From: Nitrospira sp.
GTDB taxonomy: Bacteria > Nitrospirota > Nitrospiria > Nitrospirales > Nitrospiraceae
DNA: 64,000 nt
NCBI GenBank assembly: GCA_024331095.1
Contig: JANDJE010000005.1
Span: 1-64,000, forward strand
Reading direction: 5' to 3'
A model generated the notes under the pieces. That model had not been told where the DNA came from. It searched no databases and worked only from the letters and a program-made list of their open reading frames with translations. Position 1 is the stretch's first letter. The number at the start of each line of letters is the position of its first letter. This document shows positions 2,085 to 50,627 of this stretch, in pieces. The position numbers and the translations under genes were made by a program.

Positions 2085-2456
2085 ATGGCCGGTGAGGAGA
2101 TTCCCGCCAACTACATCCCGATTCTCATTTTTATCGGGCTTACGCTCTTCGTGGGCACGGTCAGCCTGCAGATCGGGAAACTGTTTCGCCCGAACCGGCC
2201 CTACCGCGCGAAAGTGGCTCCCTATGAGAGCGGGAGTCCGCTTTTCCAGGACGCCCGCGTTCAATTTCCGATCCGATACTATATCATCGCCATGCTGTTC
2301 GTGATTTTCGACGTGGAGGTCGTGTTTCTCTATCCATGGGCCGTCGCGTTCAAGTCGCTGGACCTGGCCGGCATCCTTGGGATGGGAGTGTTTCTTTTCA
2401 TCCTGATCGTCGGATTCTGGTACGAGTGGAAAAAGGGAGCATTGGAGTGGGACTGA
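2085..2456 (+). CDS. nuoA: NADH-quinone oxidoreductase subunit A
   Basis: Membrane subunit of complex I, 123 residues, with three predicted transmembrane helices (about 8-28, 62-83, 92-112). It carries the NuoA signature YESGSPLFQDARVQFPIRYY in the loop between helices 1 and 2, and the acidic pair FDVEVVFLYPW in helix 2, both close to the quinone channel. The ATG at 2085 is preceded by AAGGA at 8 nt. First gene of a nuo operon in canonical A-to-N order. Confidence 0.97.
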   Translation: MAGEEIPANYIPILIFIGLTLFVGTVSLQIGKLFRPNRPYRAKVAPYESGSPLFQDARVQFPIRYYIIAMLFVIFDVEVVFLYPWAVAFKSLDLAGILGMGVFLFILIVGFWYEWKKGALEWD

Positions 2457-2541
2457 CGAACCGAGCGCCCGTCCTTGAGAATGTCGATTGCACGGTTCGG
2501 AGCGGGGCGACGGCGCCCGAACTTACAACCGGAGCATGCGC

Positions 2542-3021
2542 GTGAGCGTCCTGGAACGACAGTTTGACGCCAACATCATTACGACGAACCTTGACGCCGT
2601 GGTGAGCTGGGCGAGAAAGTCGGCTCTTTGGCCCATGACCTTCGGGCTGGCCTGCTGCGCGATTGAAATGATCGCCAGCGTCTCCTCGCGCTACGATCTG
2701 GATCGGTTCGGTGCCGGAGTTTTCCGGGCGTCTCCGCGGCAATCGGATCTCATGATCGTCGCCGGAACACTGTCGAGAAAGATGGCCCCCGTGGTCCGTC
2801 GAATCTACGATCAAATGGCCGAGCCTCGCTACGTCATTTCCATGGGTTCCTGCGCCACGTCCGGAAATCACTACAACAGCTATGCCGTGGTGCAGGGCGT
2901 GGACCAAATCGTGCCGGTCGACGTGTATGTGCCCGGCTGCCCGCCCAGGCCCGAAGCGTTGCTGGACGGGATCCTGAAATTGCAGGAAAAAATCCAACGC
3001 GAGAAGGTCTTTGTAAAATAA
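2542..3021 (+). CDS. nuoB: NADH-quinone oxidoreductase subunit B
   Basis: Carries the terminal 4Fe-4S cluster N2 that hands electrons to quinone. Cluster ligands are visible: the CC pair in GLACCAIEM, the cysteine in [10 protein letters not shown] and the one in VPGCPPRPE. Length is about 159 residues, as usual for bacterial NuoB. Start: GTG 2542 has GGAG at 7 nt and gives a mature-looking N-terminus ([12 protein letters not shown]); the in-frame ATG at 2536 is too close to that GGAG but possible. A longer reading from 2488 adds residues not seen in the family. Confidence 0.95.
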
Positions 3022-3092
3022 CCCGCGAGGAGCTCCCGCGCGCGACTCGGCGCGTGGGTTTGCCGGCTCCCCGGTGCGCGCCGTGTGGCGAG

Positions 3093-4853
3093 ATGCAGAC
3101 TCTTCAGGCTCTGACCGAGACGTTGCGGAAAAAGTTCCCGGAAGGGGTGTTGTCCGTCCATACGGACACCGCCCGATCGGAGGTGACGGTCCACGTTGCG
3201 GCGTCGAAGATCCTGGAACTCGCCCGCTACCTGCACGATGAGCCGGACGCGCAATTCGATCACATCACCGATATCTGCTCCGCGGATTATCCGGACAGCC
3301 GACAACGGTTCGAGGTCATCTATCAGCTTTTGTCGATTCCCCATGGAAGACGGATCCGCCTGAAAGCACGGGTGACCGAAGAGCATCCGGTCATCGATTC
3401 GGTCACCGGCGTCTGGCGCGGCGCGGAATTCCTGGAGCGCGAAGTGTACGACATGATGGGCATCCGGTTCGCCGGCCACCCGGACCTGCGCCGCATTCTC
3501 CTGCCCGAAGACTATACGGAAGGACACCCGCTGCGGAAAGATTTTCCCACGGAGGGCAAAGGCTGGCGCAGCCAGTTCGATTTTCTCCCGAAGCTCGACG
3601 AACCGCCCCCTCAACACTTCGAGGGCGAAATCCCCGAAGAACAGAAAAAACCCTTCCTCGCCGAGTCCGTCACGGTCGGAACGAGACGCCGGGAAGAACT
3701 GTTGCTCAACATGGGCCCGCAACATCCGAGCACGCACGGCGTGGTGCGCGTCGTGCTCGACCTCGACGGCGAACGGATCATCAAGGCGACTCCGGACCTC
3801 GGCTATCTTCACCGCGGCGTCGAGAAACTGGCCGAAGGCCTTGCCTACATGCAGATTATCCCGCACACCGACCGTTTGGACTACGTCTGCGCCATGGCGA
3901 ACAACTATGCCTACGTACGGGCCGTAGAAAAACTTCTCTGCATCACCGTGCCGGAACGGGCGGAATACATCAGGACGATCGTCGCGGAAATGCAACGTAT
4001 CCTCGGACACCTTTTCTGGTTGGGGTCTCACGCCCTGGATATCGGGGCCATGACGGTCTTTTTCTGGACGTTTCGCGAGCGGGAAACGCTCCTCGACATG
4101 TTCGAGCGGCTTTGCGGAGCCAGACTGACCCTCAACTACTACCGTATCGGCGGCGTCGACAGCGACTTCACGCCCGAATTGGTCCAGCGACTCAGGGCCT
4201 TTCTGAGCACGTTTCCGGAAAAATTGAGCGAGTACGACACGCTGTTGGTTTCGAACCGCATTTGGCTGGGACGCACGAAAAACGTCGCGGTGATCTCGGG
4301 AGAGGACGCGGTCAACTTCGGCCTCACCGGCCCGTCGCTCCGAGGATCCGGCGTGGCCTATGACGTCCGCAAAATGGAACCGTACGGAGCCTATCATAAA
4401 GTCGAGTGGGAAGTGCCGGTGGGGACGAACGGCGACACCTACGATCGCTACTGGGTTCGCATCCAAGAAATGCGTCAAAGCGCCAAGATCATCGCCCAGT
4501 GTCTTGACCAGATGCCGCCCGGACCAATTATGGCCGACAAGTCTCAATACATTCCGCCTCCCAAGCAGCATGTCATGCGCGACATGGAAAGCCTGATTCA
4601 TCACTTCATCCTGTTCACGCAGGGATTCAAGCCGCCGAAGGCGGAAACCTATTGCGCCACCGAATCGCCCAAGGGCGAGCTGGGGTTTTTCATCATCAGC
4701 GACGGCAGTCCCCGTCCCTATCGGTTGAAAATTCGCGCGCCGTCGTTCATCCACATGGGCGCCTTCGATCACATGGCGCGGGGGTATTTGATTTCCGACA
4801 TCATCACGATCTTCGGCACCTACGACGTGGTGATGGGCGAATGCGACCGATGA
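3093..4853 (+). CDS. nuoCD: Fused NADH-quinone oxidoreductase subunits C and D
   Basis: One 586-residue chain with the NuoC (30 kDa) domain in about residues 1-190 and the NuoD (49 kDa) domain from about 205 to the end, as in Escherichia coli. NuoC signature: EREVYDMMGIRFAGHPDLRR. NuoD signatures: MGPQHPSTHGVVRVVLDLDG with the quinone-site histidine and GYLHRGVEKL, and the C-terminal GDxDRxxGE-like end shortened to VMGECDR. The arginine of HRGVEKL is the one I expect to match the arginine methylated by NDUFAF7 in mitochondria. Start: ATG 3093 chosen; a GTG at 3054 adds 13 atypical residues. Confidence 0.96.
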   Translation: MQTLQALTETLRKKFPEGVLSVHTDTARSEVTVHVAASKILELARYLHDEPDAQFDHITDICSADYPDSRQRFEVIYQLLSIPHGRRIRLKARVTEEHPVIDSVTGVWRGAEFLEREVYDMMGIRFAGHPDLRRILLPEDYTEGHPLRKDFPTEGKGWRSQFDFLPKLDEPPPQHFEGEIPEEQKKPFLAESVTVGTRRREELLLNMGPQHPSTHGVVRVVLDLDGERIIKATPDLGYLHRGVEKLAEGLAYMQIIPHTDRLDYVCAMANNYAYVRAVEKLLCITVPERAEYIRTIVAEMQRILGHLFWLGSHALDIGAMTVFFWTFRERETLLDMFERLCGARLTLNYYRIGGVDSDFTPELVQRLRAFLSTFPEKLSEYDTLLVSNRIWLGRTKNVAVISGEDAVNFGLTGPSLRGSGVAYDVRKMEPYGAYHKVEWEVPVGTNGDTYDRYWVRIQEMRQSAKIIAQCLDQMPPGPIMADKSQYIPPPKQHVMRDMESLIHHFILFTQGFKPPKAETYCATESPKGELGFFIISDGSPRPYRLKIRAPSFIHMGAFDHMARGYLISDIITIFGTYDVVMGECDR

Positions 4854-4878
4854 TGGACGATGAAGGATAGGTACGAGT

Positions 4879-5406
4879 ATGTCTCTGTCTGAAAAATACA
4901 AAGACGACATCGCCGACATTCTGTCGCGCTATCCGGTCAAACGCTCGGCGTTGATTCCCCTTCTTTATCTTGCCCAGCAACAGGACGGCTACGTGACCGA
5001 ACGCGCGATGATCGAGATCGCCGGCATCCTCGATCTGACCCCTCCTCAAGTCTATGAAACGATCACGTTTTATACGATGTTCAATCTCAAGCCGGTGGGC
5101 AAGTTCCATATTCAAGTGTGCAAGTCGCTGATGTGCGCGTTGGTCGGCTCCGATACGGTCGTCGGCTGGATCAAAACGAAGCTGGGGATCGGTCCCGGCG
5201 AGACGACGGCCGACGGGCTCTTTACGCTGAGCCTGGTGGAATGTTTGGCCTCCTGCGGCACCGGCCCCATGATGCAGATCAACGAGGACTATTACGAACG
5301 GCTGACCGAGGAGAAACTGGACCGGATTTTGGCGGACCTGAAATCCACCGGCTCCAGCCAATTAAAAAGCGGCCCCTTTATGTGGCCGGAACCGATACGG
5401 ACGTAA
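4879..5406 (+). CDS. nuoE: NADH-quinone oxidoreductase subunit E
   Basis: The 24 kDa subunit of the NADH-oxidising arm, 175 residues, thioredoxin-like fold holding the 2Fe-2S cluster N1a. The four ligands appear as QVCKSLMC (two cysteines) and VECLASC (two cysteines). N-terminal helical region (ILSRYPVKRSALIPLLYLAQ) is typical. The ATG at 4879 is followed 85 nt after the stop by nuoF. Confidence 0.96.
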   Translation: MSLSEKYKDDIADILSRYPVKRSALIPLLYLAQQQDGYVTERAMIEIAGILDLTPPQVYETITFYTMFNLKPVGKFHIQVCKSLMCALVGSDTVVGWIKTKLGIGPGETTADGLFTLSLVECLASCGTGPMMQINEDYYERLTEEKLDRILADLKSTGSSQLKSGPFMWPEPIRT

Positions 5407-5491
5407 ACCGGTACGCTTCTCATTATGAAGGCCCAGGACGAGTCGGACTCACGAGTGACTGCCATCGATGATGAAATGAACGGGCGCGATC

Positions 5492-6799
5492 ATGCCGCGA
5501 CATGAACTGATTCTACTCAAAAACATGATGCAGCCGGGATATGGCGGCTCGTTGACGGAGTATGAGCGGGCCGGCGGCTACCAAGCCCTCCGCGCCACAC
5601 TCGGCAAGATTCCGCCGGCCGACGTCACCGCGGCGGTGCGAAAGTCCGGCCTTCGAGGACGCGGGGGTGCCGGCTTTCCGACGGGGGTCAAATGGGGATT
5701 TCTCCCCAAAGACTATCAGGGTCCCCGATACCTCTGCTGCAACGCCGACGAAAGCGAGCCGGGCACCTTCAAAGACCGCCAGTTGATGGAACGCGATCCC
5801 CATCAAATCCTGGAAGGCATTGTTCTGGCCTCCTACGCCATCGGTGCGGAAACCGCCTACATTTATATCCGCGGCGAGCTGGTGTTGGCGGCCAAGATCC
5901 TGGAGCGGGCCATCGGCGAAGCCAGGACCGCCGGCTATATCGGTAAGAACATCCTGGGGACCGGCGTCAACGTCGACGTCTGGGTCCATCGCGGCGCCGG
6001 CGCTTATATCTGCGGCGAAGAAACGGCGCTCCTCGAATCGTTGGAGGGCAAACGCGGTCTGCCTCGCGTCAAGCCCCCGTTTCCCGCCACGCACGGCCTC
6101 TACGGCAAGCCCACCGTGGTGAACAACGTCGAAACCCTGGCCAATCTTCCGCATATTATGAACCGCGGCGCCGAATGGTTCGCGTCGATCGGCTCGCCGC
6201 CGAAGAGCACCGGCACCAGGGTCTTCTGCGTCAGCGGCCACGTCAAGCGGCCGGGCAACTACGAAGTCCCGATGGGGGTGACGGTCCGCGAGTTGGTGTA
6301 CGACTACGCCGGCGGCATGCGCTCGGACAAGCCGATCAAGGCCTTTATCCCCGGCGGCGCGTCGGCGCCGTTTCTGACGCCGGCCCATCTCGACGTCAAA
6401 TTGGATTTTGAATCGGTCGCGGCGGCCGGCTCCATGTTAGGGTCCGGAGGCGTCACCGTCATGGAGGAAGGCACGAGCATGGTCTGGGCCGCCCTCCGAT
6501 TGATGGAATTTTTCTATCACGAGTCCTGCGGCAAGTGCAGCCCATGCCGGGAGGGCAGTTCGTGGCTCGTCCAGATCATGCGCCGAATCGTCGCGAAAAG
6601 GGGCCGTATGGAAGACCTTGAAACCTTGTCCGATCTGTGCAAGAACATCGCGGGACGAACGGTCTGCGCGTTCGGCGACGCGGAGGTCGCTCCCATTCAG
6701 GGTACGTTGAAGTATTGGCGAGACGAGTACGTGGCCCTGATCCGCGAAGCGGAGGCCGCTAACTTGATCATGCCGGAACCGGCGGGAGCCAAACAGTGA
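5492..6799 (+). CDS. nuoF: NADH-quinone oxidoreductase subunit F (NADH- and FMN-binding)
   Basis: The 51 kDa subunit, 435 residues, that oxidises NADH and passes electrons from FMN to cluster N3. Visible motifs: GLRGRGGAGFPTGVKW (NADH site), CCNADESEPGTFKDR (FMN site), GAGAYICGEETALLESLEG, and the 4Fe-4S motif SCGKCSPCREGSSW with a fourth cysteine in GRTVCAFGDA. The start codon follows an 85-nt spacer after nuoE. Confidence 0.97.
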   Translation: MPRHELILLKNMMQPGYGGSLTEYERAGGYQALRATLGKIPPADVTAAVRKSGLRGRGGAGFPTGVKWGFLPKDYQGPRYLCCNADESEPGTFKDRQLMERDPHQILEGIVLASYAIGAETAYIYIRGELVLAAKILERAIGEARTAGYIGKNILGTGVNVDVWVHRGAGAYICGEETALLESLEGKRGLPRVKPPFPATHGLYGKPTVVNNVETLANLPHIMNRGAEWFASIGSPPKSTGTRVFCVSGHVKRPGNYEVPMGVTVRELVYDYAGGMRSDKPIKAFIPGGASAPFLTPAHLDVKLDFESVAAAGSMLGSGGVTVMEEGTSMVWAALRLMEFFYHESCGKCSPCREGSSWLVQIMRRIVAKRGRMEDLETLSDLCKNIAGRTVCAFGDAEVAPIQGTLKYWRDEYVALIREAEAANLIMPEPAGAKQ

Positions 6800-6884
6800 A
6801 CGCCGGCAATCGCCGATCGCTTCTCAAAAGGGCGGCCGGCGCACGACCATGGGCGAAGAGGATCATAGAGGATAACGAACGGCG

Positions 6885-9575
6885 ATGACGACGCCCGCCG
6901 TACAACCCGCCGCTCAGACCGTGCCGATGGTGCGTCTCACCATCGACGGCATGACCGTGCACGTTCCCAAGGGCACATTGGTCATCGAAGCGGCCCGGCG
7001 CGTCGGCGTGATGATTCCCCATTTCTGTTACCACCCGAAACTGAAACCGGACGCCAATTGCCGCATGTGCCTGGTGGAAATCGAAAAGATGCCCAAACTC
7101 CAAACGGCGTGCAGCACGCCGGCGGAAGAAGGCATGAACGTGCGGACGGCCACCACCGTCGTCAACGACGCCCACAAGTCGGTGCTCGAATTCATCCTGG
7201 CCAATCATCCCCTCGACTGCCCGGTCTGCGACCAAGGGGGGCGGTGCGATCTTCAGGACTTCTCCCACCAGTACACGCCCACGACCAGCCGATTCGTCGA
7301 AACCAAACGCATTTTCCAGAAAGAGTATTTCAGTCCGTTGATCGAGACACAGATGAATCGCTGCGTCCAGTGCCTGCGCTGCGTCCGGTATTGCGACGAG
7401 GTGATGGACGTCAAGGCCCTGGCCCCCGTGGGTCGCGGGACCATGACCGAGATCAAACACTTCGGGCCGCACCCTTTGGACTGCGAGTTTTGCGGCGGCT
7501 GCGTGCAGATCTGCCCGGTCGGCGCCATCACCAGCCGGCTGTCGATGTACGAATACCGCCCCTGGATGCTCAAGCGGGCCGATACCATCTGCGGCTACTG
7601 CGGAGACGGTTGCCAGATGACGGTCCAAACGAAAGGACGGGAGCTGATCGAGGTCAATTCGGCGTTCGGAGCGGGACGCAACAACGGCGACCTCTGCGTC
7701 AGAGGATTTTTCGGTTTTCATGCGGCCGGTCACCCCGAACGGCTCACTCAGCCGCTCGTTCGGCGAAACGGCGTGCTTGCACCGGCCACCTGGGAAGAGG
7801 CGCTCGAGTTCGTCGCGGAACGGATCGGCACGATCAAGGAAGCTCATGGAGGACAAAGTTTCGGCGGTCTGATTTCAGGCCGATGCACCAACGAAGAGCT
7901 CTATCTGTTTCAAAAATTCATGCGCGTGACGATCGGGACCAACAACATCGACAGCAGCGCGCGCTACGGTCATATCAACGGCGTCCAGGCCATGCGAGAC
8001 GTGCAAGGCACGCACCGATGGACCGTCAGTTTCGACGACATCGCGGCCGCCGACGTCCTGTTGCTGGTGGGAACGAACATAACGGAAACGAATCCCGTTA
8101 CCGCTCTCAAGGTCAAGGAGGCGATTAAAAAGCGGCGCGCGGCGTTGGTGACGATCGAGGCGTTGGAGCCGTCCATTGAACCGATCAGCAACATCGCCAA
8201 TCTTTCCCTGCATCATTTTTGCGTGCCGACGCCGCACCTGCGAAACGCCGTTCTCGGCCTCTTGAAAGCCGTTATCGAGAACGATTCGATCCATCCGGAT
8301 CTCACTCGGCGTCACCCCTCCTATGTGAACGATCTGAGGGACGCGCTGGCCCGGGTGACCTGGCAGGAGATTGAAACCGCGACGGGCAAGGACGCCGCGT
8401 CGTTTTCCGCGGCGGCGAAGACCATCGCGGAGGGACGGCACGTCGTCGTGCTCGCCGGGCAAAGCCTGTTGCGGAGCGCGGGAGGATACTGGAACTCGCT
8501 CAATCTCCTTGACCTGTTGCTTCTCATCGGCAAACTCGATCAAGCCGGTTGCGGATTCGCGCCGCTCGCGGAGGAAAACAACGACCAAGGCGCGATCGAG
8601 ATGGGCGCCGTCGCGGAGTTTTTACCGGGCCCCTGCGACGGGGCCGACCCTGTGGAGCGGGATCGAATCATGTCGTCCTGGGGAAGCGATCTTCCTCCCT
8701 CGGGCGGCGCCTCGTTGGTCGAGATGTTGGATCGGGCCGGAGCCGGGATTCTGAAAGCGATGTTCATCGTCGGCGAAAATCCCGCGGCAAGCCTCCCCGC
8801 TCAAGTGCGCGCCCAAGACTCCTTGCGGAAATTGGAGCTCTTGGTCTGCCAGGAGCTGTTCTTGACGGAGACCGCCGCCCTCGCCCACGTGGTCTTGCCG
8901 GCGGCGTCCTCGATGGAAAAGGCCGGCACCTTTACGAATACGGAAGGCCACGTCCAAGCCGTCCGCCCCGCGATCGAGCCGATCGGCGAAAGCCGCCCCG
9001 ATTGGGAAGTCTTCGCCGCCTTGTCGGTCATCTTGGGAACTCCGATGGACTACATGGAGAGCCGGGACATCCTTAAGGAAATCCGGGGCCTGATTCCGGG
9101 CTATGGAGCGCTCGGCCCGTCGCCGATGCCTCCTCGCGTTGATGCGGCGACCATCGACCGCTATCTGGCCGAAGGCTATCGGCGCGACCTGGTCGGACGG
9201 TACCGGCTTCTCCCCGAAGAGACGCGCCCTGATGGAACCGTGCACCTTGAATTGACACAGAGCCTGTTTCATTCAGGGAAACTCTCCGCCAAATCCAAGG
9301 GCTTGCTGCTGGTCGAACCGCAGGAGACGTTGCGGATCAACCCGCGTGACGCGGCTCGATTCATGGTGAAAAACGGCGATCGCGTTCGATTGTCGAACGT
9401 GCGAGGAGAAATCACGACGACGGTCAAAATCATGAACCGGATCCCCCCCGGTTGGGCTTGGTTTCCCAACCATTTCGGATCGTCGGTCATGAGCCTGTTC
9501 GATTGCGCCATCGATGCCGTCACCCGCGCGCCGGCTTTTCGAACAACGACCGTCTCCGTCATGAAGGTTGCATAA
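6885..9575 (+). CDS. nuoG: NADH-quinone oxidoreductase subunit G
   Basis: The 75 kDa subunit, 896 residues. N-terminal 2Fe-2S ferredoxin domain (CYHPKLKPDANCRMC), a His-Cys3 cluster region (CPVCDQGGRCDLQDFSHQY), a pair of ferredoxin-like clusters (CVQCLRCVRYC, CEFCGGCVQICPVG), then CGYCGDGC with a fourth cysteine 27 residues on (DLCVRG), which is the ligand set of the extra cluster N7. The rest is a molybdopterin oxidoreductase-like domain and a C-terminal dinucleotide-binding beta barrel (about residues 770-890), both structural in complex I. N7 is kept in many bacteria and lost in mitochondria. Confidence 0.95.
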   Translation: MTTPAVQPAAQTVPMVRLTIDGMTVHVPKGTLVIEAARRVGVMIPHFCYHPKLKPDANCRMCLVEIEKMPKLQTACSTPAEEGMNVRTATTVVNDAHKSVLEFILANHPLDCPVCDQGGRCDLQDFSHQYTPTTSRFVETKRIFQKEYFSPLIETQMNRCVQCLRCVRYCDEVMDVKALAPVGRGTMTEIKHFGPHPLDCEFCGGCVQICPVGAITSRLSMYEYRPWMLKRADTICGYCGDGCQMTVQTKGRELIEVNSAFGAGRNNGDLCVRGFFGFHAAGHPERLTQPLVRRNGVLAPATWEEALEFVAERIGTIKEAHGGQSFGGLISGRCTNEELYLFQKFMRVTIGTNNIDSSARYGHINGVQAMRDVQGTHRWTVSFDDIAAADVLLLVGTNITETNPVTALKVKEAIKKRRAALVTIEALEPSIEPISNIANLSLHHFCVPTPHLRNAVLGLLKAVIENDSIHPDLTRRHPSYVNDLRDALARVTWQEIETATGKDAASFSAAAKTIAEGRHVVVLAGQSLLRSAGGYWNSLNLLDLLLLIGKLDQAGCGFAPLAEENNDQGAIEMGAVAEFLPGPCDGADPVERDRIMSSWGSDLPPSGGASLVEMLDRAGAGILKAMFIVGENPAASLPAQVRAQDSLRKLELLVCQELFLTETAALAHVVLPAASSMEKAGTFTNTEGHVQAVRPAIEPIGESRPDWEVFAALSVILGTPMDYMESRDILKEIRGLIPGYGALGPSPMPPRVDAATIDRYLAEGYRRDLVGRYRLLPEETRPDGTVHLELTQSLFHSGKLSAKSKGLLLVEPQETLRINPRDAARFMVKNGDRVRLSNVRGEITTTVKIMNRIPPGWAWFPNHFGSSVMSLFDCAIDAVTRAPAFRTTTVSVMKVA

Positions 9576-9634
9576 AGGGGATGTTCTATTTCATAGTGAA
9601 GACTTAATGCGCACTGTTAGCCGGGAGTTGTATC

Positions 9635-10708
9635 GTGACTGAACTTGGGCTGCGTTTTTTCCTGTCATTGACCCAAATCGCCGTGGTCGTCGTCATCGTC
9701 ATCGTGACGGTGCTCATCCTCACCCTCGCCGAACGGAAGGTGCTGGGGTGGATGCAGGACCGCATGGGACCGATGGAAGTGGGCCCGTACGGCATCCTTC
9801 AGCCGTTCGCGGACGCCATCAAACTGTTTTTCAAGGAAGACATCGTGCCGGCGGGGGCCAACAAGTTTCTCTTTACGGCGGCGCCGCTGCTGGCGCTGAT
9901 TCCGGCTTTCATCGGATTCGCCGTGATTCCCTGGGGTCCAGATTGGACGGTCGAATTCAACGGCACCGTCATCAAGCCGTTCGTGATCAGCGACATCAAC
10001 ATCGGCATTCTCTATATCCTGGCCTTCGCCTCGCTCGGCGCCTACGGAATCATTTTGGGCGGCTGGGCGTCCAACAGCAAGTACTCGCTGCTCGGAGGAC
10101 TGCGGTCGGCCGCTCAAGTGATCAGTTATGAGCTGAACGTCGGGCTGGCCATCATCGGCGTCATCATTTTGGCCGGTTCGTTGAGCCTGGTGAAAATCAC
10201 CAATGCGCAATCGGGGTGGTTCTGGCATTGGTATCTCTTCGCGTTCCCGGCCCCCCAGATCTTCGCGTTCGTGGTGTACGTGATTTCTTCGGTCGCCGAA
10301 ACCAACCGCGTCCCGTTCGACCTGCCCGAGGCCGAGAGCGAGCTGGTCGCAGGGTTTTTCACTGAGTACAGCGGCCTGCGCTTCGCATTTTTTTATCTCG
10401 CCGAGTATGCCAACATGGTTTTGGTCTCGTGCATCGCGGCCGCGATGTTTCTCGGCGGATGGAACGCTCCGTATCCCGGCACCGTCTTCGATTTATTGGG
10501 GCTGCCCTCCCTGGCCTGGATAGAGAACACCATGTGGTTTGCGGCTAAAACCTATTTTTTCCTGTTTCTCTTTTTCTGGCTGCGGGCCACGCTCCCGCGG
10601 CTGCGCTACGACCAATTGATGCGGTTCGGCTGGAAGGTGATGCTGCCGATCGCGTTGGCGAACATTGTGGTCACATCGATCGCCGTCTATCTGTTTCCGA
10701 ACAGTTGA
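9635..10708 (+). CDS. nuoH: NADH-quinone oxidoreductase subunit H
   Basis: Membrane subunit, 357 residues, about eight transmembrane helices, forming the quinone chamber with NuoB and NuoD. Motifs: AERKVLGWMQDRMGP, FKEDIVPAGANK, and VAETNRVPFDLPEAESELVA, the conserved acidic loop. GTG start at 9635 with GGGAG upstream. Confidence 0.97.
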   Translation: MTELGLRFFLSLTQIAVVVVIVIVTVLILTLAERKVLGWMQDRMGPMEVGPYGILQPFADAIKLFFKEDIVPAGANKFLFTAAPLLALIPAFIGFAVIPWGPDWTVEFNGTVIKPFVISDINIGILYILAFASLGAYGIILGGWASNSKYSLLGGLRSAAQVISYELNVGLAIIGVIILAGSLSLVKITNAQSGWFWHWYLFAFPAPQIFAFVVYVISSVAETNRVPFDLPEAESELVAGFFTEYSGLRFAFFYLAEYANMVLVSCIAAAMFLGGWNAPYPGTVFDLLGLPSLAWIENTMWFAAKTYFFLFLFFWLRATLPRLRYDQLMRFGWKVMLPIALANIVVTSIAVYLFPNS

Positions 10709-10723
10709 CGGCCGAGGCGGCTT

Positions 10724-11266
10724 ATGGACAGACTGAAACAATGGCTGAAGACCGTCACGCTCTATGAAATCGCCGCGGGCATGAAGGCGACGCTGTCTCA
10801 TTTGTTGAACTACAAGCCCGTCACGTTGCAGTATCCGCATGAAAAACGCACCTTGCCCGATAACTATCGCGGCATGCTCGCGCTGTTGCGCTACGACGAT
10901 GGCACGGAAAAATGCGTCGGCTGCGACCTCTGCGAAGCGGCCTGCCCGTCCCGCGTGATCCGCGTGGTCAGCGCCGAAGTGCCGGGCGAGCCCACGAAAC
11001 GCTACGCGAAAGAATATTACATGGACATGACCCGCTGCCTGTTCTGCGGAATGTGCGTGGACGCCTGCCCCGTCGACGCGCTGGGCATGACGCGGGAATT
11101 CGAATGGGCGGTATACGACAAACGGCAGCTCCACTTGAACAAACAGCAACTACTGGCGATCGGCGACCGTTCCTTCCCCGTCCGCGAGAAGCGCCTGGAG
11201 CTCCAGCACCCCAACACGGCGTTCTTCAACGTGGCGTTCAAGCACGTGCCGCAAAAGCCTGTTTAA
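10724..11266 (+). CDS. nuoI: NADH-quinone oxidoreductase subunit I
   Basis: Peripheral-arm ferredoxin subunit, 180 residues, with two 4Fe-4S clusters (N6a and N6b). Ligands: KCVGCDLCEAACPSRVI and CLFCGMCVDACPVDALGM. An N-terminal amphipathic helix anchors it to the membrane. Starts 15 nt after nuoH. Confidence 0.96.
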   Translation: MDRLKQWLKTVTLYEIAAGMKATLSHLLNYKPVTLQYPHEKRTLPDNYRGMLALLRYDDGTEKCVGCDLCEAACPSRVIRVVSAEVPGEPTKRYAKEYYMDMTRCLFCGMCVDACPVDALGMTREFEWAVYDKRQLHLNKQQLLAIGDRSFPVREKRLELQHPNTAFFNVAFKHVPQKPV

Positions 11267-44560: not shown

Positions 44561-45337
44561 ATGGTGCAAACCGAGGACCCCGCCGCCGCGCAACAGACGA
44601 AAGTGCAAGCCAAGGTCGTCTCGACGTGGTCCGGCCGGGCGCGCGAACAAGCCGTGCAACGGATGTTCACAGCCATTGCCGGCGTGTACGACCTGAACAA
44701 CACGCTCTTAAGTTTCGGTCTTCATCACCGTTGGAAGAAAATCGCCGTCTCGTTCGTCACGCCGGTCGAACGTGGCCTGGCGCTCGACGTGGGTGCCGGC
44801 ACCGCCGACTTGGCGATCCTCGTGGAGCCGCGCATGGGCCCCAACGGGCGTGTGATCGCATCCGACTTGAACCACGCCATGTTGGCCGAAGGGCTCAAGA
44901 AAGTGGCCGGCAAGGGGTTGACCGGCAAGATCGTCTGTTTGCAGGCCAGCGCCGAACGGTTGGGGTTTGCGGACGACACCTTCGACGCGGTGACGACGGG
45001 CTTCTGCATGCGCAACGTCGGCAACTTGCCGCTGGCCGTCGCCGAGATCCGCCGCATTCTCAAGCCCGGCGGCCGGTTCGTCTGTTTGGAATTCTCCCGC
45101 CCGGTCTATAAATGGCTGCGGACCCTGTATGACTGGTACTCGTTTACGCTGCTCCCCTGGATCGGCACGAAAGTGGCCCGTGATTCCACCGGCGTGTATG
45201 AATATCTCCCGGCCTCGATCCGCACGTTTCCCGACCAAGAACGGCTGTGCCAGATTCTCCGCGAAGCGGGCTTCCGACAGGTGGAATACCGAAATCTGAC
45301 GGGAGGAATCGTGGCGATTCACGTGGCGACAAAATGA
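44561..45337 (+). CDS. UbiE/MenG-type quinone methyltransferase
   Basis: 258 residues. RAREQAVQRMFTAIAGVYDL followed by NNTLLSFGLHHRWKK is the N-terminal family signature, LALDVGAGTADLAI the SAM-binding loop, TTGFCMRNVGN the second motif, and LEFSRPVYKWLRTLYDWYSF the C-terminal signature. These enzymes methylate demethylmenaquinone or the ubiquinone precursor; the product would serve as the quinone for the complex I encoded in this window. Which quinone cannot be read from the sequence. Confidence 0.9.
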   Translation: MVQTEDPAAAQQTKVQAKVVSTWSGRAREQAVQRMFTAIAGVYDLNNTLLSFGLHHRWKKIAVSFVTPVERGLALDVGAGTADLAILVEPRMGPNGRVIASDLNHAMLAEGLKKVAGKGLTGKIVCLQASAERLGFADDTFDAVTTGFCMRNVGNLPLAVAEIRRILKPGGRFVCLEFSRPVYKWLRTLYDWYSFTLLPWIGTKVARDSTGVYEYLPASIRTFPDQERLCQILREAGFRQVEYRNLTGGIVAIHVATK

Positions 45338-45635: not shown

Positions 45636-47738
45636 ATGTACAAGACCATTTATATCCCGGTTGACAATTCCGACCATTCCAACGCCGCCGTGGACATCGG
45701 CATCCACCTGGCGAAGCGATTCGGTTCCAAGATCATCGGCAGCCACGTCTACGCCGCCAAAATGCACGATAAACGCTTCAAGCAGATGGAGGCCGGTCTG
45801 CCGGAAGAGTATCACGACGAGAAAGAACTCGACCGCCAGCGCCAAATTCACGATTCCTTGATCACGCGCGGGCTTCAAATCATCACGGACTCGTACCTCG
45901 ATTACGTGGACAAGAAGTGTTCGGAATCGAACCTGCCGATCGAACGCCGCTCTCTTGAAGGGCGCAACTGGAAGGTCTTGTCCGAAGACATCAACACCAA
46001 CGGGTACGATCTCGTCATCATGGGAGCCCTGGGGGTGGGGGCCGTCAAGGAGAGCGTGATCGGCAGCAACACGGAGCGAGTGGTCCGTCGCGTGCGCAAC
46101 TCCGACATGTTGATCGTCAAGAACGTCCAGCCGATGCGGACGGGCAAGATCGTGGTCGCGGTCGACGGCAGCCCCTATTCGTTCGGCGGCCTGATGACCG
46201 CCCTGCAGCTCGGCAAGGCGTTCGACATGCCGGTCGAGGCGATTTCCGCCTTCGATCCCTATTTTCACTACGCCGCTTTTCACAGCATTTCCGGCGTCTT
46301 GAACGAGGAAGCCGGGAAGGTGTTCCGTTTCAAAGAGCAGGAAAAGCTGCACGAAGAAATCATCGACAGCGGTTTGGCCAAAATCTATCAGTCGCACCTC
46401 GACATCTCCCGCGAGATCGCCCAGGCCGAGCAATCGGATCTCAAGACGACCCTCCTCGATGGAAAAGCGTTTGAGAAAATCATTCAATACGTCCGCAAAG
46501 ACGTCCCGGCCCTGCTGATCGTCGGCCGGATCGGGGTGCACAGCGACGAGGACATGGACATCGGCAGCAACACGGAAAATCTGCTGCGCAGCGCGCCTTG
46601 TAACGTTCTCGTCTCGAACAGAAAGTACGTGCCGCCGATCGATACGCAGGCGGAGTACACCATCGCCTGGACCGAAGAGGCCCTCCGCCGCATGGAGAAG
46701 ATCCCCGTCTTCGCCCGCGGAGTCGCCAAGACCGCCATTCACCGCTATGCGATTGAAAAGGGCCACACGATCATCAGCAACACGGTCGTGGACGCGGCAG
46801 TCGGTCATATCCTGCCCAAGGGAGCCATGGAGGCCATGCGGGCGCTGGGCGGAAGTCTCGATCAAGCCGGTATCGATCGGAACAAAATGCAGGCCGACGA
46901 CGCGGTGGCGCAAGACCTGATGGGCGCGACCTTGAGCGGCATCATGACGCAAATCGTCGAGGAGAAGCCCAAGACGTCCGATTCGACGCAGGCCTACCTC
47001 GCTCGCATGAGCCAAAATTATTTCGTGTGCGACGGATGCGGTTACATCGGAAAAGGCGACACGCCGGTCAAATGTCCGGTCTGCGGCGCGGACGGCTCGC
47101 GATTCAAACAAGTGGACAAGACGATCTTCGAAGCGGCGGCCCAAGCCGAAGGAGGGCTGGAAACGGACGTAGCGTACGACGACGTCCCCATGCAGTGGAC
47201 AAAAGACGCAAAAGAAGCCATCCGGGCCGTCCCGGCAGGCTTTCAACGGCGCCGGGCCAAGGCCAAGATCGAGAAGACCGCCCGCAAACTCGGCATGACC
47301 ACCGTCACCCTGGAATTTGCCGCCCCCATGATTAAAGAGGCGGCGTCGGAGGATTACCGTCCGATCTTCTCCAACAAGGGAACGGGAATCTCATCGGAGG
47401 CGGCGGCCAAGCTGGGAATTGCAGGAGGGGCAACCGACCAGCACGGCAACGGCGCCCATGCCCCCGCTGAGACGAAGGTCCAACAGGATGCCGATGCTTC
47501 CCCCTATACCTGGACTGCGGAAGCGCAGGCACGGCTGGAACGGGCGCCGGAAGGCTTCATGCGGGACTGCACAAAGGCTTTGATTCTGAAACACGCGGAA
47601 AAGATCGGCGTGACCCATATTACGCTGGAAGTCGCCAACGAAGGGATCGAGCAGGCCAAAGGCTACATGGCCGAGGCCATGAAAACCGGCAATCTCAAAA
47701 GCATGATCGCGGACCTGACCGGAAAAGGACGCGCCTAG
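45636..47738 (+). CDS. Multidomain universal stress protein with three PCP_red domains and a rubredoxin-like zinc ribbon
   Basis: 700 residues, soluble. Two USP domains (about 1-163 and 168-332), each with an ATP-binding loop (GVGAVKESVIGSNTERV; RIGVHSDEDMDIGSNTENL). Then PCP_red domain 1 (about 340-390, AWTEEALRRMEKIPVFARG), a CxxC...CxxC ribbon like those of rubrerythrins (about 463-495, VCDGCGYIGKGD and KCPVCGADG), PCP_red 2 (518-565, QWTKDAKEAIRAVPAGFQRR) and PCP_red 3 (623-670, TWTAEAQARLERAPEGFMRD). PCP_red is the small domain at the C-terminus of the B subunit of dark protochlorophyllide reductase; its role is unclear and no photosynthesis gene is nearby. GGGGGAAG precedes ATG 45636. 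Confidence 0.85.
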   Translation: MYKTIYIPVDNSDHSNAAVDIGIHLAKRFGSKIIGSHVYAAKMHDKRFKQMEAGLPEEYHDEKELDRQRQIHDSLITRGLQIITDSYLDYVDKKCSESNLPIERRSLEGRNWKVLSEDINTNGYDLVIMGALGVGAVKESVIGSNTERVVRRVRNSDMLIVKNVQPMRTGKIVVAVDGSPYSFGGLMTALQLGKAFDMPVEAISAFDPYFHYAAFHSISGVLNEEAGKVFRFKEQEKLHEEIIDSGLAKIYQSHLDISREIAQAEQSDLKTTLLDGKAFEKIIQYVRKDVPALLIVGRIGVHSDEDMDIGSNTENLLRSAPCNVLVSNRKYVPPIDTQAEYTIAWTEEALRRMEKIPVFARGVAKTAIHRYAIEKGHTIISNTVVDAAVGHILPKGAMEAMRALGGSLDQAGIDRNKMQADDAVAQDLMGATLSGIMTQIVEEKPKTSDSTQAYLARMSQNYFVCDGCGYIGKGDTPVKCPVCGADGSRFKQVDKTIFEAAAQAEGGLETDVAYDDVPMQWTKDAKEAIRAVPAGFQRRRAKAKIEKTARKLGMTTVTLEFAAPMIKEAASEDYRPIFSNKGTGISSEAAAKLGIAGGATDQHGNGAHAPAETKVQQDADASPYTWTAEAQARLERAPEGFMRDCTKALILKHAEKIGVTHITLEVANEGIEQAKGYMAEAMKTGNLKSMIADLTGKGRA

Positions 47739-47837
47739 CTCGTCTCACGTCATCTCTTCATGACACGGCTCCGGAGAGGCTTCCTTCGTTCCACGTCCTA
47801 TTCCGCCCGCGCGGCAGGACACTATACAGGGCACTAT

Positions 47838-47843
47838 TATAAT
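47838..47843 (+). promoter_or_regulatory. TATAAT -10 box immediately before the radical SAM gene
   Basis: Perfect TATAAT ending 8 nt before ATG 47852, so the transcript would begin at about 47850. No matching -35 and no Shine-Dalgarno sequence. Suggests a leaderless message. Confidence 0.35.
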
Positions 47844-47851
47844 TGGCTCGC

Positions 47852-49216
47852 ATGGGCAAATCGCTTCCCATTCTAAATCCGTCTCCCGCGCCGGGCTCTC
47901 CACCGTACCAAAGTCTCGGCGACCGCTCGCCTTCGCCGCTTCGGGACGGACGAACCGTCGATGACTTCAAGCCCTATCTCGTCGCGCTCAACCTGACCAA
48001 GCGGTGCAATCTGAAATGCGACCACTGCTATCTCGACGCTACCACCAGAGCGTCGGGCGGCCATGACGAGCTGTCCACCGAAGAATGTTTCCGACTGATC
48101 GATCAGATTGCCGACGTCAACAAAGGCTGTCTGCTGGTCATCACGGGAGGCGAGCCGCTGGTGCGGCCGGATATCCTCGACATCGCCCGCTATGCCGTGA
48201 ACGCCGGCTTCATGGTCGTCTTAGGGACGAATGGGATGCTGATCGACGATCGGATCGCCAAAACCCTGGTCGAGATCGGCGTGATGGGGGTGGGCATCAG
48301 TATCGACTCGCTGGACCCGGCCAAACACGACGCGTTCCGCGGCATTCCGGGAGCGTGGAACGCCGCGGTCGCCGGCATCGAAGCCGGCAAGCGCAACGGC
48401 CTTCAGTTTCAAATTCACTTCAGCGTCCAGCCTATGAACTATCAAGAACTGCCCCAGGCCATCGAGTGGGCCCATCGGCTCGGAGCCCGCGTGTTCAACG
48501 TATTCTTCATGGTGTGCACGGGGCGGGGAGAAGAACTGACCGATATCACGCCGGCTCAGTACGAAGAGGCGCTCGGCTATCTGGTCACTTGCCAGGACAA
48601 TTACAAAGGCATGCTGGTCCGCGCCCGATGCGCGCCGCACTTCAAACGGCTGGCCTATGAGAAAGATCCGAACTCTCCCCTCACCAAGGCAACCGGCTAC
48701 ATGGGCGGCGGCTGCCTGGCCGGCACCAACTATGCCCGCGTGACCCCGAACGGCGAATTGACTCCCTGTCCCTACATGCCCCTCTCGGCCGGGAACGTGC
48801 GGCAGCGCAGCTTCGCGGACCTGTGGAACCACTCCGACATTTTCAACTCATTCCGCTACCCTCAACTCAAGGGCAAGTGCGGAGACTGTGAGTATTCGGA
48901 TATTTGCGGGGGGTGCCGCGCGCGTCCCTACGTGGATCACGGCGATTGGTTGGACGAGGATCAGTGGTGTCTGTACACCCCCAAGGGCGGGGAGAAGATC
49001 AAAGTGGCGTTCAATACGCCGGAAGACGCCCCGATCCAATGGGACGACGCCTCGTCGGTGCGCCTCAGCCGCATTCCGTATTTCCTGCGAGCCATGGTGA
49101 AAAAGGGCGTCGAAAAACACGCCCGGGAACATAACATCTCACTGATTACCGTCGAGCTGATGGAAGAGTTGCGCAAGAAGCGATTCGGCAACGACGCACC
49201 GGTTTTTAAGTTGTAG
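47852..49216 (+). CDS. Radical SAM/SPASM protein with C-terminal PCP_red domain
   Basis: 454 residues. Radical SAM cluster TKRCNLKCDHCYLDA (about residue 50), VITGGEPLVRPD and GVGISIDSLDP; SPASM-type auxiliary cluster cysteines in GGGCLAGTNYARVTPNGELT, PCPYMPLSAGN and KCGDCEYSDICGGCRARPY. This arrangement is that of the AhbC/AhbD/NirJ group acting in alternative heme and heme d1 synthesis, and of peptide-modifying enzymes. The last 50 residues (IQWDDASSVRLSRIPYFLRA) form a PCP_red domain like those of the preceding protein. The substrate is unknown; a tetrapyrrole is one possibility (inference). Confidence 0.88.
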   Translation: MGKSLPILNPSPAPGSPPYQSLGDRSPSPLRDGRTVDDFKPYLVALNLTKRCNLKCDHCYLDATTRASGGHDELSTEECFRLIDQIADVNKGCLLVITGGEPLVRPDILDIARYAVNAGFMVVLGTNGMLIDDRIAKTLVEIGVMGVGISIDSLDPAKHDAFRGIPGAWNAAVAGIEAGKRNGLQFQIHFSVQPMNYQELPQAIEWAHRLGARVFNVFFMVCTGRGEELTDITPAQYEEALGYLVTCQDNYKGMLVRARCAPHFKRLAYEKDPNSPLTKATGYMGGGCLAGTNYARVTPNGELTPCPYMPLSAGNVRQRSFADLWNHSDIFNSFRYPQLKGKCGDCEYSDICGGCRARPYVDHGDWLDEDQWCLYTPKGGEKIKVAFNTPEDAPIQWDDASSVRLSRIPYFLRAMVKKGVEKHAREHNISLITVELMEELRKKRFGNDAPVFKL

Positions 49217-49298
49217 CGCGTCGCTCGCAACGCCCGTGAACGGGCCGAACGCGGATGTACCCTTCGGGTGACCGTTTCTCTTTCAGGACACATCGCAC

Positions 49299-49808
49299 AT
49301 GGACGCTTTTCAACAGATCTTTTTTGATCTCAACACGCTCATTCCGATTCTCAATCACTGGATTCACCTACTCTCGGCGGTGATCTGGATCGGCGGCCTC
49401 GCTTTTCTTGTTTTGGCGGTCACCCCGGGCCTTCAAACGGCGGTGCCGAAGGAGCAGGTCAAACCGATCACGGACGTCTTCTACCGCCACTACAAGAAAG
49501 CGGCGGGCGTTCTTTTGGTCGTCCTCCTGTTTACCGGCGGCATCAATCTGCACTACGTCAATCAGGTCATCACGTCGCAAACCGGCGCCGGCATGCAGCA
49601 TCATGCCAAGTATCTGATCGTTTTTTGCATCAAATTGCTCCTCGTGCTCGGTCTTCTCACGCTTTTTTTGTACACCGTGATTTTCAAATCCGATGACCAA
49701 GCCGAAGAGGGGGAAACCTACGAGGTCATTCCGTTTCAGCGCGCCGCGCTGTGGATGGGATTCTTTATCGTGCTGTGCGCCGCCGCGATGAAACACCTGC
49801 ATCTTTGA
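49299..49808 (+). CDS. Four-helix membrane protein, CopD/HemJ-like
   Basis: 169 residues with four predicted helices (about 15-42, 66-88, 103-128, 148-165). NHWIHLLSAVIWIGGLAFLV, FYRHYKKAAGVLLVVLLFTG, QHHAKYLIVFCIKLLLVLG and AAAMKHLHL contain histidines at helix positions used for heme b in CopD-like and HemJ-like proteins. Next to a putative tetrapyrrole-type radical SAM enzyme a heme protein is an attractive guess. AGGAC lies 9 nt before the ATG. Confidence 0.7.
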   Translation: MDAFQQIFFDLNTLIPILNHWIHLLSAVIWIGGLAFLVLAVTPGLQTAVPKEQVKPITDVFYRHYKKAAGVLLVVLLFTGGINLHYVNQVITSQTGAGMQHHAKYLIVFCIKLLLVLGLLTLFLYTVIFKSDDQAEEGETYEVIPFQRAALWMGFFIVLCAAAMKHLHL

Positions 49809-49865: not shown

Positions 49866-50627
49866 TCATCGCGAGCGCTTCGGGTCGGACCACGCCCGTT
49901 TGAAAACCGTTCTGAGACCGAAATAGCCGATCGAGTCCTTCAGATTCGAATAGAGCCGCTTGATCGGATTCATGTCCGAATTCGTCACGTACTCCATCGT
50001 CAACACGATCCGCTCTTCTCCTTCTCCGAGAGGCGTGACGGCGTGCCAGAGCTTGTCTCCGTTGAAAATCACCAGGTCGCCCGGCTCGGTGACCAGTTCA
50101 AGATGACGGAGCGGTTTCGTCGGATGATTTTTGAAGAGGTCGCATACCAACTTGCAGCATGTTGACCGGTCGACCAACCCCATCAAAATCGTATAGCGCG
50201 CCCCCTTGTAATACGACGTGTCATAGTGAAAGCCGATGTGGTCCCCGGGTTCCGTGTAGTAGTAGAGCGCGCACGCGTGGGGATCATTGTCCGGGCAGAC
50301 CATCACATCCGCGTCCGTAAGCCGGTTGAGGAAACGTTTGAACGACTCCGAGCGGTAGATGTCCAAAAAGCGGGGGGCTTTTTCCTGAACCGTATAATAG
50401 CTGACGCTTCCGCCTTTCTTATGGCCGGGAATGTAGTTGCGATTGAGTTCGCTCTTCACGCCTTGCGCCTGCGGCACCAGGACCTGTTCCACGAAGGCCC
50501 GCGGCAAAAACTGCTTGATGACCAGAAACTCTTCTTGATCCCAATACTCCCCGTGCAGCCGGTCGAGATCCAACGCCGCCACCGCTTGATCGACCGCCTC
50601 CACCACGGTGTTTGCTTCACGTATCAT
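49866..50627 (-). CDS. 2-oxoglutarate/Fe(II)-dependent dioxygenase-like protein
   Basis: 253 residues. Iron triad: histidine and aspartate in GFHYDTSYYKG and the distal histidine in KLWHAVTPLGEGEERI, with the arginine of ERIVLTMEY for 2-oxoglutarate. TEPGDLVIFNGDKLW is typical of the double-stranded beta helix. The N-terminus (EEFLVIKQFLPRAFVEQVL) resembles prolyl-4-hydroxylase-like members. The substrate is unknown. Confidence 0.8.
   Translation of the reverse strand: MIREANTVVEAVDQAVAALDLDRLHGEYWDQEEFLVIKQFLPRAFVEQVLVPQAQGVKSELNRNYIPGHKKGGSVSYYTVQEKAPRFLDIYRSESFKRFLNRLTDADVMVCPDNDPHACALYYYTEPGDHIGFHYDTSYYKGARYTILMGLVDRSTCCKLVCDLFKNHPTKPLRHLELVTEPGDLVIFNGDKLWHAVTPLGEGEERIVLTMEYVTNSDMNPIKRLYSNLKDSIGYFGLRTVFKRAWSDPKRSR

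Follow-up and report, generated by a model that had tools for sequence, protein, structure and literature searches.

Why does PCP_red, a small domain known elsewhere from the synthesis of chlorophyll, occur four times in two adjacent proteins of Nitrospira, one built on universal stress protein (USP) domains and the other on a radical SAM enzyme? Nitrospira are among the main nitrite oxidisers. The initial annotation of a 64,000-nucleotide stretch of Nitrospira DNA (hereafter, the window) proposed that these two genes and a membrane protein gene form an undescribed system, possibly engaged in tetrapyrrole or metal-cofactor chemistry. The window belongs to a Nitrospira-type genome of 2.6 Mb that is 80% complete. 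Here, we analysed the domain composition of the locus, its conservation and the relatives of the radical SAM enzyme.

Domain composition of the locus

All four PCP_red domains scored above the PF08369 gathering cut-off of 32.5 bits (Table 1), and the predicted structures showed a three-helix, short–long–medium pattern at each of the four sites. Pfam assigned two Usp domains (116 bits), three PCP_red domains (108 bits) and a RUBY_RBDX ribbon (27.9 bits against a cut-off of 26.5) to the first product, and Radical_SAM (83.5 bits), SPASM (42 bits) and PCP_red (48 bits) to the product of the listed reading frame 47843–49216. The M4 residue of the latter is nearly invariant in the alignment, indicating that the conserved start is the ATG at 47852. 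The arrangement described in the initial annotation was thus recovered, with three PCP_red domains mixed with two USP domains and a rubredoxin-like ribbon, and one on the neighbouring radical SAM/SPASM protein. The number four holds at this locus but is not a fixed property, as the USP proteins of orthologous loci carry from one to five copies. Scanning of the window against Rfam gave no RNA element match, and promoter and terminator scans gave matches at chance level only.

Table 1. Positions of genes, domains and motifs in the window
Feature	Position	Strand	Evidence
mpqE, methyl-plastoquinone methyltransferase	44561–45337		409.7 bits, cut-off 335
Tandem-USP protein, USP-USP-PCP_red-RUBY-PCP_red-PCP_red, 700 aa	45636–47738	+	Pfam, AlphaFold model, Foldseek, conservation
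Helical insert in USP1, aa 41–99, HDKRFKQMEAGLPEEY...	45756–45932	+	Conservation (42% of columns invariant), model helices
Helical insert in USP2, aa 206–265, FDPYFHY...EEAGKVFRFKEQEKLHEE	46251–46430	+	Conservation (53% of columns invariant), model
PCP_red 1	46668–46799	+	54.3 bits, PF08369
Rubredoxin-like ribbon, two CxxC (aa 465, 480)	47022–47108	+	RUBY_RBDX 27.9 bits, motif
PCP_red 2	47196–47318	+	41.4 bits, PF08369
PCP_red 3	47511–47636	+	34.4 bits, PF08369
AhbD-like radical SAM/SPASM enzyme, C-terminal PCP_red, 454 aa from conserved ATG	47852–49216	+	
Radical SAM motif CNLKCDHC	48005–48028	+	Motif search
SPASM region CX27CX17CX36CX2CX5CX2CX17C, fits full AhbD motif	48629–48970	+	Motif search
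PCP_red of radical SAM protein	49040–49174	+	51.9 bits; three-helix domain aa 402–448 in model
Small membrane protein with about four hydrophobic stretches, distantly similar to CopD/DUF4149	49299–49808	+	Adjoins pair in 62 of 75 paired loci (best 80 of 347 USP relatives)

The locus is part of a wider PCP_red expansion, since the PF08369 search of the window's genome detected 12 domains in five proteins; PCP_red was present in every listed genome of the window's own class, mostly with 8–13 matches. Two further PCP_red proteins lie on the same contig (L011:16040–17251 and L012:12417–13211), one with four repeats and the other with two repeats after an N-terminal part that contains CxxC. Sequence matches of the domain included the C-terminal domain of BchB, the standalone protein Asr4154 (2L09), 2KRU, 3AEK and others. 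The domain is thus shared with BchB/ChlB of dark protochlorophyllide reductase and with Asr4154, but the proteins of the locus lack the nitrogenase-like BchN/BchB core and carry PCP_red in repeats and joined to USP and radical SAM parts; the BchB model TIGR01278 gave 63.7 bits against a cut-off of 490, covering the C-terminal domain only. A fusion of USP with PCP_red in Methanomicrobiaceae appears in a 2025 survey (PMC12159084), the available part of which gives this archaeal pairing by automatic annotation and describes neither a radical SAM partner nor a gene pair. Our literature search returned no function for an isolated PCP_red domain.

Both USP domains retain the nucleotide motif G2xG9xG(S/T), at aa 130 and 297, and the AlphaFold model matched tandem USPs such as Rv2623 and TTHA0350 in Foldseek; the AlphaFold models of the two proteins were of medium quality (pLDDT 74 and 69). 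The partner resembles tandem universal stress proteins (Rv2623, TTHA0350 and UspE) in its two USP folds, here both with the ATP motif, but differs from them in that both USP domains contain a helical insert of high conservation and that PCP_red and rubredoxin parts are added. Four USPs are up-regulated in the published low-oxygen proteome of N. marina (PMC8115632). Invariant columns made up 42–53% of the inserts, compared with 13–34% of the USP cores and 4–17% of PCP_red, so that the two helical inserts, and not PCP_red, are the most conserved parts of the protein. None of the Pfam models marks these inserts as separate features, and the USP2 insert is partly of low pLDDT. Their invariant residues are D/E/H/K/R rather than a cysteine core. 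Of all parts of the protein, the inserts would be the most probable place for a ligand or for contact with the partner. The low conservation of PCP_red relative to the inserts favours a docking role over a site with strict catalytic or ligand-binding demands; it is plausible that PCP_red acts as a contact or ligand module common to both proteins.

The membrane gene is real and encodes a product of 169 aa, but its proposed CopD/HemJ-like identity was rejected, as all models stayed below their cut-offs. The scores were 19.8 against 32.1 bits for PF05425, 36 against 195 for the NCBIfam CopD model NF033808 and 19.7 against 24.6 for DUF4149. HemJ (TIGR00701) gave no match at E 0.01 in the window's genome, and the family was undetected at that level in 16 of 17 genomes, with one sub-threshold match in the 17th. 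In an alignment of 83 membrane proteins, no histidine except H23 is fully invariant; H168 comes close, being present in all 78 sequences with a residue at that position, while at least one sequence of family f6 (L145) ends before it. Because H23 is the sole invariant histidine and H168 is not found in all members, heme binding, which the initial annotation had suggested, is not supported by the sequence.

Conservation of the gene pair

A scan of GTDB genomes with the USP protein gave 347 relatives, of which the best 80 were analysed. The USP-PCP_red protein was conserved at these 80 loci, and among the best 80 the radical SAM-PCP_red gene came next on the same strand in 75 of the 78 testable loci, often overlapping or within about 150 bases, with the membrane gene third in 62 of the 75 paired loci. 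The paired loci included N. moscoviensis, N. defluvii, other Nitrospirota classes and one Myxococcota genome. Adjacency was also observed at 17/19 testable loci of relatives and at 8/8 testable loci of other Nitrospirota families; although the three sets share a few contigs, these counts indicate that the pairing is not due to chance. Nearly all members of Nitrospira's order have the pair, in almost every case as a single copy. The pairing of the two genes is thus well supported, and what they encode looks like a genuine enzyme system that has yet to be characterised. With PCP_red matches above the family threshold and the genes neighbouring each other in relatives, the proposal of an undescribed conserved system was borne out; no paper describing the pair was found in our literature search.

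Across 20 loci of relatives' genomes, the order of USP-PCP_red, radical SAM-PCP_red and membrane genes was kept in families f1, f2 and f3. Family f4 has the USP-PCP_red and membrane genes together, and in the one f4 genome where it was read, the radical SAM-PCP_red gene is on another contig. In f14 and f38, which are other Nitrospirota families, the pair is present with a USP protein that has two PCP_red domains and, by alignment, lacks the rubredoxin ribbon. The Myxococcota genome has a 406-aa USP-USP-PCP gene, too short for the ribbon, that overlaps a 406-aa radical SAM-PCP gene by 4 bases. The simplest form is thus USP-USP-PCP with radical SAM-PCP; the rubredoxin ribbon, further PCP_red copies and the membrane protein are extras on a core of two proteins that share PCP_red. 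Several orthologous loci lack the ribbon and the membrane protein, so neither can be essential to the chemistry.

Other genes were observed near the operon. In a class-mate (L145 of genome G164, 2190–10868), the USP-PCP_red, radical SAM-PCP_red and membrane genes are clustered with genes for proteins of four and two PCP_red domains, a CADD-like protein and an Mrp/ApbC iron-sulfur carrier. Downstream of the operon in the window, on the opposite strand at 49866–50627, lies a HalD-family 2-oxoglutarate oxygenase-like gene (41 bits; cut-off 26), which adjoins the operon in many Nitrospira. Most Nitrospira have one gene between mpqE and the USP gene (L048:4445–6082), which the window's genome lacks at that position; where read, it encodes a B12-binding radical SAM protein closest, with 442 of 775 bits, to slr0320 ('photosystem II high light acclimation').

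Relationship of the radical SAM enzyme to AhbD and NirJ

The best curated models for the radical SAM-PCP_red protein were NirJ2 (TIGR04055, 323 bits) and AhbD (TIGR04545, 317 bits), which represent heme or heme d1 enzymes and have cut-offs of 500 bits. The protein scored below every curated model, and the AhbD model exceeded 500 bits in 0/22 Nitrospirales genomes. Profile comparison with AhbD of the same phylum aligned 337 columns at 35% identity, including the TGRG and CAPH segments, and identity to AhbD and AhbD-like proteins of the phylum was about 34–38%. The full AhbD motif, published for methanogens and sulfate reducers, consists of CX3CX2C and an eight-cysteine SPASM spacing of CX20-33CX17CX36-37CX2CX5CX2CX17-35C (PMC10452713). 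Both parts were found in the radical SAM-PCP_red protein; the SPASM spacing was present in every member of the main radical SAM-PCP_red clade, as well as in most canonical AhbD and AhbD-like proteins.

In a maximum-likelihood tree with a midpoint root and long branches, a branch with 96/85 support separated the PCP_red-fused enzymes as a clade of their own from AhbD, an AhbD-like group scoring 430–455 bits, TIGR04053, NirJ and Paenibacillus enzymes. Two proteins of family f18, in which the PCP_red tail is weaker and the SPASM spacing is lacking, grouped on the far side of this branch, a pattern that may reflect more than one gain or loss of the PCP_red fusion. Furthermore, f14 and f38 genomes hold the pair together with a separate canonical AhbD or 430–455-bit AhbD-like enzyme. 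By sequence, the protein is a member of the wider AhbD/NirJ group, but it differs from AhbD and NirJ2 in its score below the cut-offs, its own clade, its C-terminal PCP_red, its fixed USP partner and its coexistence with AhbD in some genomes. Based on the score, the clade and this coexistence, a straight AhbD assignment was rejected and the enzyme is called AhbD-like. The leaning of the initial annotation towards tetrapyrrole chemistry was supported, as the radical SAM part is nearest to AhbD, NirJ2 and NirJ and has the exact AhbD SPASM spacing. An antiviral role was also rejected, as the weak matches to viperin models (71 bits, radical SAM core only) had no further support.

A tentative mechanism and its alternatives

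Both proteins carry the small helical PCP_red domain in their C-terminal part, and their genes are mostly tightly spaced or overlapping. Our preferred reading, held tentatively and as somewhat short of an even chance, is a dedicated two-protein radical SAM system in which a USP partner and an AhbD-like enzyme act on a tetrapyrrole. The tandem-USP protein would be a regulatory, scaffolding or substrate-holding partner of the SPASM enzyme, with PCP_red docking the two proteins or binding their common ligand. The enzyme would perform an AhbD/NirJ-like oxidative change, such as decarboxylation or loss of a propionate, and the target is probably a propionate-bearing tetrapyrrole. The tetrapyrrole reading draws on NirJ2 and AhbD as the best models, the SPASM spacing, the 337-column alignment with AhbD, and the match of PCP_red to the C-terminal domain of BchB, a tetrapyrrole enzyme. 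The AhbD reaction requires an electron acceptor, the identity of which is not settled (PMC11306076, PMC10452713). In Nitrospiria, the rubredoxin ribbon of the partner could fill that role by accepting the electron that remains from the radical reaction; the membrane protein would perhaps pass it toward the quinone pool.

Evidence against a tetrapyrrole target comes from the structural search. SPASM enzymes often modify peptides, and the top structural matches of the radical SAM-PCP_red model were SkfB, BlsE, PqqE and SuiB, although no AhbD or NirJ entry came up in the PDB search. As an alternative, the enzyme could be a SPASM maturase. Its substrate would be either the partner, for instance at a residue within the invariant USP inserts, or a small peptide, and PCP_red would serve for recognition. 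Strict gene pairing, the high conservation of the inserts and the peptide maturases among the nearest structures are all consistent with this, but the sequence kinship is to AhbD and NirJ2 rather than to peptide maturases, and the inserts lack a cysteine core among their invariant residues. We consider a maturase unlikely.

The second alternative is an AhbD-type, oxygen-independent coproheme decarboxylase standing in for ChdC at low oxygen. Among 18 Nitrospirales genomes, HemE was detected in 17, a ChdC/Cld-family protein in all 18, HemF in none and a true HemN over the cut-off in one. At the HemE loci read, the genes after HemE are HemH and HemY in f1 and just HemY in f3. The combination of HemE, HemY and ChdC/Cld without HemF fits the coproporphyrin pathway, and Nitrospirales look like heme makers of this type, in which coproheme should be an intermediate; CgoX-type sequences of Nitrospirota have been noted (PMC10740692). 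Matches to PF06778 fell into two classes of about 200 and 130 bits, of which the stronger was taken as putatively ChdC-like. AhbD serves organisms with hemY and hemH (PMC10548856, PMC7242693), and the identical SPASM spacing agrees with the decarboxylase reading. In contrast, the score of 317 against 500 bits, the separate clade and the separate AhbD or AhbD-like enzyme of f14 and f38 speak against it, as does the ChdC-family protein already present. Given the coproporphyrin pathway, the pair is not needed to explain heme b. We consider a low-oxygen decarboxylase role unlikely as well. Separately, HemH was undetected in 6/6 f3 Nitrospirales genomes, the genome of L101 (G027:C1:903000–918000) and five others, one of the six being a single contig; the same six have HemE, HemY and a ChdC/Cld-family protein, leaving the iron-insertion step unaccounted for.

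The set might also make or insert a modified heme that serves Nitrospira's cytochrome bd-like oxidases. In the window's genome, the gene of a protein with two PCP_red domains is directly followed by a membrane gene and the gene of a bd-like oxidase (L013:8372–11892, G000:C46), and in f38, bd-like and c-type cytochrome genes lie just upstream of the USP gene. Only these two neighbourhoods are of this kind, while other loci adjoin thiolase, histidine kinase or multiheme cytochrome genes, making this role improbable. A step of methyl-plastoquinone synthesis, suggested by mpqE upstream of the pair in the window and most Nitrospira, is highly improbable and was rejected, as the pair and MpqE dissociate both ways: f14 and f38 have the pair with no MpqE match, f13 and f21 have MpqE with at most one PCP_red, and in f3 mpqE is far from the pair.

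Returning to the two-protein tetrapyrrole system, its furthest extension would be a new radical SAM subfamily by which nitrifying Nitrospira and their relatives make a tetrapyrrole cofactor not yet described. The ATP-binding partner with its USP domains would gate this subfamily, and PCP_red would be a module for handling tetrapyrroles in general, predating or outside chlorophyll synthesis; we regard this as rather unlikely. The near-universality of the pair in Nitrospira's order suggests that it probably belongs to core physiology. The locus offers a testable handle on the role of PCP_red outside chlorophyll synthesis and, through the USP partner, on the role of a universal stress protein beside a dedicated enzyme, and the radical SAM-PCP_red protein suggests that AhbD-like enzymes reach beyond heme b synthesis.
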